Shown here piece by piece: positions 51,994 through 57,119 of a DNA stretch of 57,119 nucleotides (the first letter of the stretch is position 1; each line of letters begins with the position of its first letter). The position numbers and the translations under genes were made by a program. The DNA is from Asanoa iriomotensis (GTDB taxonomy: Bacteria > Actinomycetota > Actinomycetes > Mycobacteriales > Micromonosporaceae), in NCBI RefSeq assembly GCF_016862515.1, contig NZ_BONC01000051.1:1-57119 (forward strand), written 5' to 3'. The notes below the pieces were generated by a model. It was not told where the DNA came from and ran no database searches. It saw only the letters and a list, made by a program, of their open reading frames with translations.

Positions 51994-52317
51994 ATGGCAC
52001 GCGTACGACGCCCTTCGCCGCAGACCTCGGCCGTGCTCGCCGCCCTCGCGGAGGCGGGTCCGGAGTGGAGCCACGGCTACGACCTGTGCCGCGCCCTGGA
52101 TCTGAAGGCGGGCACGGTCTATCCGATCCTCATCCGGCTCACCGAGCGCGGGCAGGTGGAGACCACCTGGGAGACCGACCCGCCGCGCGGGCGCCCGGCG
52201 CGACACCTCTACCGGCTCAGCACCGCGGGCGCGGAACTGGCCCGCTCACTCGCGGCGCAGGCCGCCGACCGCGCACCCGCTCCCGGCGCGACCCGGCTCG
52301 CGCCGCGGACCACCTGA
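51994..52317 (+). CDS. PadR-family transcriptional regulator
   Basis: A 107-residue winged-helix repressor: SPQTSAVLAALAEAGPEWSHGYDLCRALDLKAGTVYPIL in outline, with the recognition helix in LKAGTVYPILIRL, the wing ETTWETDPPRGRPARHLYRL, and a short C-terminal helix for dimerisation. It probably represses itself and the adjoining membrane-protein gene through the dyad at 51972-51985. The ligand is unknown. Confidence 0.93.
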   Translation: MARVRRPSPQTSAVLAALAEAGPEWSHGYDLCRALDLKAGTVYPILIRLTERGQVETTWETDPPRGRPARHLYRLSTAGAELARSLAAQAADRAPAPGATRLAPRTT

Positions 52318-52336: not shown

Positions 52337-53566
52337 ATGTTCGAGTTCCTCCTCGTTTTCGTGGTGGTCGCGCCCGCGCCGGCGCTCGCGCTCGGGGTGC
52401 TCGTCGCCCGGCTGCGGCGCGGCGGCGCCCTCGCCCGTCTCTGGCCTGGGTTGCGGGGCGGCGTCGCCCGGCCGGTGTGGATCGGCCTGGTCGCGACGGT
52501 CGTCTTTGCGGGAGCGTTGACCGCCGGCCTGGAACAGGCCTACCTCGCCGCCATGCCCAACCGGCCCGAACGGGGCTTCGACACCGGGCTGTTGGCCCTC
52601 GTCATCGGACAGTTCGCGGTCGTGCTGTCCGCCGCGCTGGCCGCCGTGGCCGCCGCCGCCGTGGCCCGTGCCCGCGGTTTCGGCGCGGGGGCCGTCGCGG
52701 GGGTGCTCACGCTGGTCGCCGTCGGCGCCGGTGCGGCGGCCGCGCACCTGCCGCTGCGGGCTTATTACCTGGCGAACCCGAGTAGCTTCCCGCCCCCGCT
52801 GAACCTCGGCGAGGGCGGCCTGCTGGTCCCGTTCGACGCCTTCCTGATCACGCTGGCCTGGGCCCTGCCGTGGCCGGTGATCGGCGCGGCGCTCGCCACT
52901 CGCGGCCGTCGTCGCCCGGTCCGCGACCTGCCGCAGCTCGTGCTCGACCTGGCCACCTCGGACCTGCCGGCGAACCGTGCGGCGTGGGGTGCCGCGCTGC
53001 GGGCGGAACTGGCGGCGATCGACCCGCCGGCCGAGCGCCGACGGTTCGCCCGGGGCGGCGCCTGGGCGGCGCTGCGGACCGGTCCACCGCGGGGCGCGTG
53101 GTTGGTCGGAGCGGGGGTCGCGGTTGTGGTGGCGTTGGGTACGTTGGCTGCGTCCCGCTGGTCGCTGGCCCATGGCGGGGGCGGCGTGCTCGGCTTCTGG
53201 GCGGAGGCACCGACCGTCGTGCTGTTCGTGGTGGCCCTGCTGGCGGCCTGGCGGTCACGCTCATTCGGTGCGGGCCTGCGCGGCGGGATCGTGGCCGGTT
53301 TGGGGGCGCTGGTCGCGGTGGTCGCGGTCGGCATTCCGGAGGCGATTCTGTGGACCAACGAACGAGCGGGCTTCCTGAGCACCGGCGACGCGGTCCCACC
53401 GGACTGGCAGACCGCGGTCCGCGACACACTGCGCCCGGAGTTCCTGATCGGAATGGCCCTGTTCTGGACCACCGCCACCGCCGGCGGCGCGGCCCTCGGC
53501 GCGGCTCTGGCCCGACTACACACCCGCACCAGCGACGAGGTCACCGCCGCCAGGGTCATTCACTGA
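52337..53566 (+). CDS. Multi-span membrane protein of PadR locus
   Basis: 409 residues, about nine to ten hydrophobic segments in two blocks. They are separated by a cytosolic stretch with the pattern AWGAALRAELAAIDPPAERRRFARGG, which I associate with actinobacterial membrane proteins encoded after PadR regulators. No transporter family signature is clear. GGAGG lies seven bases before the ATG; the gap to the padR gene is 19 bases, so they form one operon. A permease or stress-response membrane protein is a guess. Confidence 0.8.
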   Translation: MFEFLLVFVVVAPAPALALGVLVARLRRGGALARLWPGLRGGVARPVWIGLVATVVFAGALTAGLEQAYLAAMPNRPERGFDTGLLALVIGQFAVVLSAALAAVAAAAVARARGFGAGAVAGVLTLVAVGAGAAAAHLPLRAYYLANPSSFPPPLNLGEGGLLVPFDAFLITLAWALPWPVIGAALATRGRRRPVRDLPQLVLDLATSDLPANRAAWGAALRAELAAIDPPAERRRFARGGAWAALRTGPPRGAWLVGAGVAVVVALGTLAASRWSLAHGGGGVLGFWAEAPTVVLFVVALLAAWRSRSFGAGLRGGIVAGLGALVAVVAVGIPEAILWTNERAGFLSTGDAVPPDWQTAVRDTLRPEFLIGMALFWTTATAGGAALGAALARLHTRTSDEVTAARVIH

Positions 53567-54063: not shown

Positions 54064-54768
54064 TTAGGCGCCTGGGCGGACCAGGCCCGACTCGTACGCC
54101 AGGACTACCGCCTGGACGCGGTCGCGGAGGCCGAGTTTCGTGAGGACGTGGCCCACGTGGGTTTTGATCGTGGTTTCGCTGACCGAGAGCTTGCGGGCGA
54201 TCTCCGCGTTGGACAGGCCGCGGGCTACCTGGACCAGGACCTCGCGCTCCCGTTCGGTCAGGGTCGCCAGGGCCGGCGGTGTCGTCTCGCGGGGGTCCGG
54301 CAGCGACGCGGCGAAGCGGTCCAGCAGGCGCTTCAGGATTCGGGGGGCGACCACCGCCTCGCCGGCGGCTACGGTGCGGATCGCGGTCACCAGGTCGTCG
54401 GCGGGGACGTCCTTCGCCAGGAAGCCGCTGGCGCCCGCGCGGAGCGCGCCCACCACGTACTCGTCGAGGTCGAAGGTTGTCAGGACCAGGACCCGGACGG
54501 GCAGGCGGGTTTCGACGATCGCGCGGGTGGCGGCCACGCCGTCCATCCGGGGCATGCGGACGTCCATCAGCACCACGTCGGGGAGCAGGCGCCTGGCCAG
54601 GTCGACCGCCTCGACGCCGTCGCCGGCCTCGCCGACCACGTCGAGGTCGCCCTGGGCGCCGAGGACCAAGCGGAATCCGGTGCGCAGCAGGGGCTGGTCG
54701 TCGGCGAGCAGCACCCGGACCGGCCGCCCGGGTGCGTTGGTCCCGTCGGCCGCGGCCTCCGCCGTCAT
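54064..54768 (-). CDS. NarL/FixJ-family response regulator
   Basis: 234 residues from ATG 54768 (an alternative ATG is at 54801). The receiver domain has the acidic pair LLADDQPLLRTG, the phospho-acceptor Asp69 in LMDVRMPRMDG, and Lys119 in FLAKDVPADD. The LuxR-type HTH is LTEREREVLVQVARGLSNAE followed by IARKLSVSETTIKTHVGHVL. GGGGTGG precedes ATG 54768. No histidine kinase gene adjoins it on either side, unlike most NarL-type pairs in actinobacteria. It diverges from the ABC ATPase gene, which it may control. Confidence 0.93.
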   Translation of the reverse strand: MTAEAAADGTNAPGRPVRVLLADDQPLLRTGFRLVLGAQGDLDVVGEAGDGVEAVDLARRLLPDVVLMDVRMPRMDGVAATRAIVETRLPVRVLVLTTFDLDEYVVGALRAGASGFLAKDVPADDLVTAIRTVAAGEAVVAPRILKRLLDRFAASLPDPRETTPPALATLTEREREVLVQVARGLSNAEIARKLSVSETTIKTHVGHVLTKLGLRDRVQAVVLAYESGLVRPGA

Positions 54769-54915
54769 CGCCACCCCACAATCGTCGCGTACCCGCGTCA
54801 TCTTTCCGCACCTGTGTTGCGGCGCGTGTCCCCGGCCGGGCCGGCCCGAATGAGGCCGGGCGTTTCGCCATCAAATGTCCAGTTATTTGGGGCTGCTGGG
54901 GAATGATCGGACAAC

Positions 54916-57119
54916 ATGACCACGACTGCCGTGACGGGGCCGGCCGCGCGGGCCGTCCACGTGTGGAAGGTGTACGGGGCCGGCGAGACCGAGGTCGTCG
55001 CCCTCCGCGACGTGAGCGTCGACCTGGAACGGGGGAAGTTCACCGCGATCATGGGCCCGTCCGGGTCGGGCAAGTCGACGCTGATGCACTGCCTGGCCGG
55101 ACTCGACTCGGTGAGCCGGGGCGAGGTCTACGTCGGCGACACCCAGGTCACGGGCCTGGGCGACGCGGGCCTGACCCGCCTGCGGCGAGACAAGATCGGG
55201 TTCGTCTTCCAGCAGTTCAACCTGCTCCCGACGCTGACGGCCGAGGAGAACATCCTGCTGCCGCTGTCGATCGCGGGCCGCAAGCCGGACCCGGAGTGGT
55301 ACCGCACGGTCATCGAGACCGTCCGCCTCGGCGACCGCCTGGGCCACCGCCCGACCGAGCTCTCGGGCGGACAGCAGCAACGGGTGGCCTGCGCCCGCGC
55401 CCTGGTCGGCCGACCGGACGTCATCTTCGCCGACGAGCCGACGGGCAACCTGGACTCCCGCTCGGGCGCGGACGTGCTGACGTTCCTGCGTGACTCGGTG
55501 CAGACCCACGGCCAGACCATCGTGATGGTCACCCACGACCCGGTGGCGGCCTCGTACGCGGACCGGGTCCTGTTCCTGGCCGACGGCGCGGTGGTCGACG
55601 AGATCCTCGACCCGACCGCCGACGCGGTCCTGGACCGCATGCGCACCATCGACGCCCTGGACGAATCTGTGCCGGGCCCGACGACGGTGCCGGTCACGGG
55701 CCCGGCACCGGAAAGCCGCGGTACGACGGACCCGACGGGCCGCACCCCACACCCGGGCGCCGCCGACGTCGGCGACGCACCTGGTGGTCCACATCGGACC
55801 GGCACCGACACCGGCACCGGCGGCGGGTCGGCGGGACCGCGCGAGCCGGACGACCCGACGGCCCGCGCCGGCGCGCCGACCACCGACGCGTCGCGGGCGG
55901 CGAAGGTTGAAAGAGCCCCAACCGCCAGCGCGACCCAGACGACCACAGCGACGCTGACGGCCGCCGAGCCGACGTCGGTCTCCCCTGCCGGCCCGGCCGC
56001 GGTCAGGGGCACGGTGACGCAGCGTTCGCGGCCGCGCAAGGCATCCGTCGACACCGCGCGCCCGGTGCGAAAGGCCGCCAAGGCGACCCCGGATCAGAAA
56101 CGCCGGAAGGCGGAGGCCCTTGACGCGGCGGTGAAGAGGAGGAAGTCGGGCCGCACCGCCGCCGGTGACGACACCCCCACCACGCCGCCAGGCACGACCG
56201 AGACGAACCGCACGACCCCGACCGAGCCAACCTCGACCGGTGCGGCCACGTCTGCGACACAGCGCGACGTGACGGCCGCGAACGCGGCGCGGCCCGGCAC
56301 GGACGAGGGAACCGCTTCCACCGCATCGCGTTCCGCGAAACCGGTTAAGGGCACGGGCAGATCGCGTCCCAAGGCCGCGACCTCCTCGGCGAGTGCCGCC
56401 GATCCACGCAAGGCTGGCAGGACCGCCGGCACGGTGCGACCCCGGCCGACCGCGGCCGAATCAAGCGCGAACATCGCCCAAACGGACCGGGGGCCGGCGG
56501 CCTCCACCACGGACGCGGCGCAAATCGACGCGAACGGCGGCAGCACCCACAAGGCGACCATGCCGGTGCACGCGGCGCAGATTGACGAGACCAGCGCCGG
56601 CACGGCCGAGCCGACCGTGCGACCGGACGCGGCCCGGACTGACACGAACACCACCACCACCACCACCACCGAGCCGACCACGCCGCAGGACACGGCACGG
56701 ATCGACGGCACCAGCGCCAGCACCACCAAGACGGCCACGCCACCAGACCAGTCGCAGACCGATGGGAAGACCGCCGGCACGGCAGAGACGACCACGCCAC
56801 CAAGCGCGACGCGGACTGAGCGGAAGACCGCCGGCACGACTGAGGCGACCACGCCGCCAGACCTGTCGCAGGCTGACGGGACGAAGGCCGCAACCGACGA
56901 GGCGACCACGACGGCGGACGCGGCGCGCGATGGTGCGGACGGCGCCGGTGCGGTCGGGGTCGCGAGACAAAGCGACGCTGCAGCGGCCGCGGACGGTGCG
57001 GTGGGGGCCGGTCCTTCCGCCACGTCTGAGCCCGAAGGCGCCGACGTTGAGTCGGCCAGCACCGGTGCGGTGCGGTCCGGTGAGGGTGAGCGGCGGGCGG
57101 CGCGGCGGAAGCCCGCCGG
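54916..57119 (+). CDS. ABC transporter ATPase with a very long Thr/Ala/Pro-rich tail (3' truncated by window)
   Basis: The frame runs from ATG 54916 to the window end without a stop: at least 734 codons. Residues 1-235 are a MacB/LolD-type ATPase: Walker A GPSGSGKST (47-55), Q-loop near 99, LSGGQQQRVACARAL (149-163), Walker B VIFADEP with Glu174, H-loop His207. From about 250 on, the protein is low-complexity: a Pro/Asp/Gly part, a basic part (370-414, with RSRPRKAS, DQKRRKAEALD and KRRKSGRT), then at least 300 residues of degenerate repeats with TTPP, TAGT, AARTD and QIDGT words. Family members normally stop near 230-260 residues. The partner FtsX-like permease is expected downstream, outside the window; the tail might be fused to it. 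Confidence 0.85.
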   Translation, partial: MTTTAVTGPAARAVHVWKVYGAGETEVVALRDVSVDLERGKFTAIMGPSGSGKSTLMHCLAGLDSVSRGEVYVGDTQVTGLGDAGLTRLRRDKIGFVFQQFNLLPTLTAEENILLPLSIAGRKPDPEWYRTVIETVRLGDRLGHRPTELSGGQQQRVACARALVGRPDVIFADEPTGNLDSRSGADVLTFLRDSVQTHGQTIVMVTHDPVAASYADRVLFLADGAVVDEILDPTADAVLDRMRTIDALDESVPGPTTVPVTGPAPESRGTTDPTGRTPHPGAADVGDAPGGPHRTGTDTGTGGGSAGPREPDDPTARAGAPTTDASRAAKVERAPTASATQTTTATLTAAEPTSVSPAGPAAVRGTVTQRSRPRKASVDTARPVRKAAKATPDQKRRKAEALDAAVKRRKSGRTAAGDDTPTTPPGTTETNRTTPTEPTSTGAATSATQRDVTAANAARPGTDEGTASTASRSAKPVKGTGRSRPKAATSSASAADPRKAGRTAGTVRPRPTAAESSANIAQTDRGPAASTTDAAQIDANGGSTHKATMPVHAAQIDETSAGTAEPTVRPDAARTDTNTTTTTTTEPTTPQDTARIDGTSASTTKTATPPDQSQTDGKTAGTAETTTPPSATRTERKTAGTTEATTPPDLSQADGTKAATDEATTTADAARDGADGAGAVGVARQSDAAAAADGAVGAGPSATSEPEGADVESASTGAVRSGEGERRAARRKPA
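56500..56940 (+). repeat. Degenerate ~60-bp coding repeats in the ABC ATPase tail
   Basis: Recurring codon blocks encode variants of a roughly 20-residue unit: KTAGTAETTTPP, KTAGTTEATTPP, TSASTTKTATPP, and DAAQID / DTARID / DAARTD. One point (56650-56670) has seven ACC codons in a row (seven Thr). Every change keeps the frame, as expected of translated sequence. Confidence 0.75.

Follow-up and report, generated by a model that had tools for sequence, protein, structure and literature searches.

A gene at the right-hand end of the window encodes an ABC ATPase with a long C-terminal tail. The window, the whole stretch of 57,119 nucleotides analysed from Asanoa iriomotensis, takes up all of contig C51, one of 187 that make up this 8.57-Mb genome, and the ATPase frame is open at its end because the assembly breaks there. 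The frame (54916–57117, + strand, ORF reading of the window) encodes 734 aa and is stop-free to the contig end. Another contig of this genome, C24, opens with the 21 bases that close the window. Reading through both gives a protein of 802 aa with a stop at C24:224–226, and a separate permease gene starts with the ATG at C24:236, 9 bases past that stop. The join is supported by the seam residues ARRKPAGAAGSRPAASRPP, which match an unbroken gene of the congener G004. The features of the gene are as follows, with their evidence in brackets.

54916..57119 and onward to C24:224–226, + strand: tailed ABC ATPase gene (ORF reading and C24 overlap)
54916..55650, + strand: ATPase (nucleotide-binding) domain, residues 1–245 (PF00005, predicted fold, pN/pS)
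55711..55758, + strand: 16-residue motif ESRGTTDPTGRTPHPG, residues 266–281 (identity, pS/pN, genome search)
55945..55959, + strand: TATLT element, residues 344–348, weakly conserved (alignment window identity)
56089..56145, + strand: Lys/Arg-rich predicted helix, residues 392–410, in this species only (AlphaFold2, search of six genomes)
56649..56670, + strand: CAC array encoding a Thr7 run (tandem-repeat listing)
56715..56871, + strand: 57-bp imperfect tandem repeat, 2.8 copies, with a 19-residue unit containing TTPP words (TRF)
57100..57119, + strand: start of the distal basic block ARRKPAGAAGSRPAASRPPAGKQRRR, residues 729–754, with the remainder on C24 (alignment)

The permease gene (C24:236–2785, 849 aa) contains two stretches each of PF02687 (FtsX) and PF12704 (MacB_PCD). 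Directly after it lies a second ATPase-permease cassette of the same family, without a tail (C24:3120–6412, L120). Both cassettes stand in tandem in all five congeners, where a congener search placed the second ATPase cassette about 4.5 kb downstream. On the other side, a LuxR-type response regulator (54064–54801, − strand) is divergent from the tailed ATPase, with 114 bases between them. BceAB-type peptide-antibiotic modules have a sensor kinase and a response regulator of their own next to the transporter. No sensor kinase was found among the five window ORFs searched. A 409-aa membrane-protein-like ORF with no Pfam match (52337–53566, + strand) lies behind a PadR-type regulator (51994–52317).

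ATPase domain and transporter class

PF00005 was matched at residues 30–176 (110 bits), and Pfam gave no match outside the ATPase domain of the window protein up to an E value of 1. In a 29-sequence alignment no variation was seen at GPSGSGKST (47–55), SGGQ (150–153), E174 or H207, and very little at L149. AlphaFold2 predicted the ATPase with block pLDDT values of 87–98 after the first ten residues and a last core helix at 235–250. The domain has a pN/pS of 0.11–0.16 over 15 species pairs (pS 0.25, pN 0.032). An earlier note, made from this single sequence, had placed ATPase motifs at residues 47–55, 149–153, 174 and 207 and had read the frame from 54916 as open at the window edge; both readings hold, the frame running for 734 aa with no stop. 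Its suggestion that the tail links an ATPase-permease fusion fell once extension onto C24 gave a stop and a separate permease 9 bases on.

The best solved relatives of the domain (about residues 15–230) are MJ0796 (3.3e-57) and BceA (1.6e-52), followed by YbbA, MacB and LolD. The closest among 80 named relatives are from Micromonospora (79–80% identity) and Actinoplanes (75–80%), which makes a place in the Micromonosporaceae probable. No NCBIfam cut-off was reached among the matches listed (25 of 186). The MacB equivalog score is 193.8 bits against a cut-off of 966, and the scores for LolD (186 of 307.75), DevA (186.3 of 295.8) and FtsE (178 of 264.85) also lie below their cut-offs. The protein falls short of MacB proper by this score and by its separate permease gene, and of LolD, DevA and FtsE by their curated scores. 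Because MJ0796, BceA, YbbA, MacB and LolD are closest and no NCBIfam cut-off was reached among the matches listed, the ATPase was placed with the type VII ABC systems. In these systems an ATPase dimer sits beneath the permease, as in the MacB and LolCDE structures. The window domain matches all five of these known ATPases, and its partner permease has FtsX and MacB_PCD domains. An early end after the ATPase domain is typical of type VII ATPases, if not formally defining. The 27 solved sequences matched at E values up to 1e-40 have 218–273 aa, except for the long MacB and Rv1281c chains, whereas the protein described here has 802 aa, 557 of them past residue 245.

Distribution of the tail

The search of related genomes that the earlier note had suggested recovered a tailed orthologue, with the permease directly downstream, in 6/6 genomes of the genus, this one included. 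The tails diverge fast in sequence and vary in length. Past position 245 there are 557 residues here, 535 in G001, 419 in G005, 378 in G003, 324 in G004 and 315 in G002. In all six species the frame is open up to an ATPase stop 3 to 15 bases ahead of the permease ATG. A query with the tail of this species matched just three of the six genomes (G000, G004, G005) because the tail sequence diverges.

Outside the genus, likely orthologues were identified via the permease in seven genomes of four other genera (54–59% identity; next best 47%). They have just 3–34 residues after the conserved Asp aligned with residue 246, as counted by eye from the alignment. In a family search the ATPase matched at E values up to 1e-115 in 166 of 200 genomes. 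Frames of >400 aa outside the genus, among the matches listed, were fetched together with some shorter ones, giving 14 loci. Seven long frames (>400 aa) outside the genus, among the matches listed, are open upstream and not tailed. All 20 ATPases read at these 14 loci end 98–131 residues after the signature. The same holds for 78 of the 80 named relatives, which end 98–123 residues after it; the only two tailed ones are labelled Frankia. The computed length of one relative (L058) was inflated by an earlier signature-like match and is normal by eye.

Other MacB-type ATPases in the six genomes were also read. A further 27 matches were listed, 24 were fetched and 22 were readable by script, and all 22 end 97–108 residues after the signature. 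L117 and L118 fit no motif pattern, no locus was available for three of the 27, and L095 is the tailed gene itself, truncated where its locus ends. L001–L008, ABC ATPases of other kinds with 86–247 residues after the signature, were not counted. On these gene comparisons, no MacB-type ATPase read in the genus other than this one has the tail. The tail-less outside orthologues, relatives and other MacB-type ATPases argue that it is an expansion in one gene of one genus.

The translated tail and its 16-residue motif

Of 300 dinucleotide shuffles per tail, 5 were stop-free for the full tail of this species and 10 for one congener tail; the four remaining congener tails gave 48 to 91. In DNA of 72% GC the absence of stops alone is therefore weak evidence for coding. 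The reading frame is settled by comparison, since it is open to a stop near the permease ATG in all six species. In the motif at residues 266–281, 60% of synonymous sites differ on average across the six species (pS 0.60, pN 0.021) while nearly all letters are kept, which means selection on the protein that is stricter than on the ATPase. By this comparison the tail is translated. The earlier note had proposed translation and can be followed on that point; its reasoning that no repeat disrupts the frame pointed in the right direction but is weak alone, given the stop-free shuffles.

Frame-preserving indels were examined in 5 of 15 pairs and are useful for the closest pair alone. In that pair (G002–G003), 19 of the 27 gaps have lengths divisible by 3, the two frames stay in register over 876 of 930 aligned bases, and substitutions by codon position number 35/34/81, third positions being the most changed. 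In four more distant pairs, where DNA alignments are unreliable, gaps are multiples of 3 in 25/59, 17/72, 36/99 and 31/86 cases. The tail as a whole has a pN/pS of 0.48–0.85 (15 pairs). As most of it nears neutrality, most of the tail may be dispensable.

The motif ESRGTTDPTGRTPHPG shows a single substitution across the six species. Mean pairwise identity is 0.98 in the motif, whereas 16-column windows of the tail have a median of 0.13; the motif's pN/pS is about 0.035, against 0.13 for the ATPase. A strong motif site was found once per genome in 6/6 genomes of the genus and only in the tailed gene (next match E 1.4). Among 354 family genomes, strong matches occur only in these six. As the six species are closely related, this conservation covers no more than a single genus. 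The motif starts about 15 residues after the last ATPase core helix, and no fold or secondary structure was predicted for it in the single-chain AlphaFold2 model (pLDDT 43–49 in ten-residue blocks). It is visible only by comparing sequences and is absent from the earlier single-sequence note. Weak matches were seen in another genus (G303:C2:6194163–6194210 and G274:C23:35917–35970; E 0.018–0.019, 67–69% identity).

The tail is predicted to be disordered. AlphaFold2, run on the protein of this species only, gave a pLDDT below 50 at 417 of 734 residues, in keeping with the disorder suggested earlier. The 557-residue tail contains no Phe, Trp or Tyr, and congener tails contain none to two Phe. 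Its composition is 20% Ala, 17% Thr, 11% Pro and 10% Gly. TRF arrays were found in five of the six tails, and 17/17 rows, many of them overlapping, have periods divisible by 3. The periods are 57 bp here, 21/63 in G001, 15–66 in G005, 24 in G003 and 18 in G002; PGQT words are common to the G003 and G002 repeats. The threshold that yields these 17 rows gave no array in the G004 tail. A lower threshold applied to the window gene gave seven rows, three of them short, low-scoring and not divisible by 3 (periods 10, 5 and 7). The (Thr)7 run and TTPP repeats described earlier are encoded by the CAC array at 56649–56670 and the 57-bp array at 56715–56871.

Smaller elements are less well kept. The Lys/Arg helix at 392–410 was predicted with block pLDDT values of 86 and 78. 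The weight formerly placed on a histone-tail-like Lys/Arg cluster at 370–414 is not sustained: the cluster is absent from five congeners, and a query with residues 382–419 against the six genomes found only itself (next best E 0.185). The TATLT element (344–348) has related letters in five of six species, with a mean identity of 0.44 in its 16-column window. The distal basic block, RRK...RPAA..PP.GK, is recognisable in five of six species (best 16-column window mean identity 0.55) and not in G005. Third-position GC is 0.94–0.97 in the ATPase domain and 0.79–0.88 in the tails of the window gene and congeners, and second-position GC is 0.47–0.49 and 0.71–0.74, respectively.

Possible roles of the tail

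The main reading, given a probability of about 0.6, is that the ATPase is a separate subunit of a type VII (MacB/FtsX-like) ABC transporter, with its permease gene adjoining, and that its tail is disordered and carries a conserved candidate docking peptide. In this genus the ATPase would have gained a long intrinsically disordered cytosolic tail, which would hang in the cytosol beside the membrane, anchored at the ATPase under the permease. A near-invariant short peptide within freely changing, fast-evolving, predicted disordered sequence is what a short linear docking or modification motif typically looks like, and the peptide may be one. It could bind one cytosolic partner, or the transporter itself, and docking could hold the partner at the membrane or gate ATP hydrolysis. 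The Thr-rich motif could be phosphorylated. Other tail sequence may act as a spacer in which disorder and rough length matter and not the letters, with the distal basic block possibly contributing a weak affinity for acidic lipid or nucleic acid. Among the uses proposed for the tail in the earlier note, a partner-recruiting role is probably the best reading, on account of the conserved motif.

In FtsZ a folded NTPase is followed by a disordered stretch that leads to a conserved peptide at the far end. The tailed ATPase is alike in outline, not homologous, and has its conserved peptide near the ATPase instead. A doubtful but serious alternative is intramolecular regulation: folding back onto the ATPase dimer or the coupling helices of the permease, the peptide would inhibit or couple ATP hydrolysis, and no outside partner would be involved. 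The motif, about 15 residues past the last core helix, is within reach of the ATPase or permease; it is, however, of low confidence and without secondary structure in the single-chain model. A precedent is Bacillus subtilis FtsZ, whose core is described as inhibited by its own disordered tail (PMC12747378).

It is unlikely that the tail is an almost neutral low-complexity accretion, formed when a stop near the permease was lost or displaced and GC-rich repeats slipped, with the polypeptide tolerated. Tail pN/pS reaches 0.85, lengths run from 315 to 557, repeats differ by species, and the Lys/Arg helix is private to one species, all as accretion would have it. However, the 16-residue block is more constrained than the ATPase (about 0.035 against 0.13), more than 300 residues are kept in 6/6 species, and the other MacB-type ATPases read in the same genomes are not extended. 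Far less probable is that the tail DNA is untranslated and that the conserved block works at the DNA or RNA level as a regulatory element. In GC-rich DNA chance alone yields open frames not infrequently, and gaps are mostly not multiples of 3 in the four distant pairs with unreliable alignments; yet the block is kept as protein and not as DNA (pS 0.60), this synonymous change within the motif is taken as grounds for rejection, and the closest pair keeps its frame (19/27 gaps, 876/930 bases, 35/34/81 substitutions). A linker in an ATPase-permease fusion, which the open frame at the contig end might suggest, has next to no probability and was rejected, as the stop at C24:224–226 lies 9 bases before the separate permease gene at C24:236 and the genes are also separate in five congeners.

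Under the docking-peptide reading, the locus is a clean natural example of a bacterial enzyme that has gained a long disordered tail in a single genus. The nearly tail-less orthologues outside it (seven, four genera), the repeat turnover in six species and the near-invariant peptide, which marks where function must lie, make a hunt for a partner directly testable. They also offer a model for the origin of disordered tails in GC-rich bacteria and for the way in which such tails become functional. The motif letters had no match in the literature searched. A survey of 1581 ABC transporter sequences describes regions outside the domains that are disordered and evolutionarily dynamic (PMC13257379); MacB and "linear motif" each occur 0 times in its main text, and the tail described here is on a stand-alone bacterial ATPase subunit.

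The two tailed Frankia relatives, Frankia R82 (L021) and a MAG labelled Frankia alni (L025), have ATPases 71% and 69% identical to the window domain and tails of 374 and 230 aa, also just before the permease. These tails are unlike the one described here: Gly, Pro and Tyr are prominent, Lys is absent, and the kept elements are DAAQRGL-like and AGWA. The 16-residue motif was not found in the L021 and L025 tails. One weak low-complexity alignment of the L025 tail covers the motif (E 0.017, 39 of 92 BLOSUM points, low-complexity filter off), which counts against a clean separation of the two tails. The Frankia permease starts with a KSLLARK type that resembles the tail-less second cassette here. 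The differing composition, kept elements and permease start suggest that the Frankia tail probably arose independently.

We tentatively propose, at somewhat less than even odds, that the same step was taken independently in two or more actinobacterial lineages, among them this genus and Frankia: long disordered tails, each with its genus-specific conserved peptides, would have made a MacB/FtsX-type ATPase a tethered hub, through which the transporter recruits, or is switched by, a lineage-specific cytosolic partner. In the literature searched, a collection with incomplete journal coverage, no account was found of such a regulatory layer in type VII ABC transporters, of Frankia tails, or of disordered or extended tails of such ATPases. 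In the genus of R82 the ATPase is present in 13/13 genomes; 11 closed frames are all tailed (124–375 aa) and two run off the sequence. Most of L213, L216, L217 and L219–L226 have DAAQRGL-like letters after the ATPase. In 10 of the 11 closed frames the C-terminus is AGWA or EWA, so that these end in WA.
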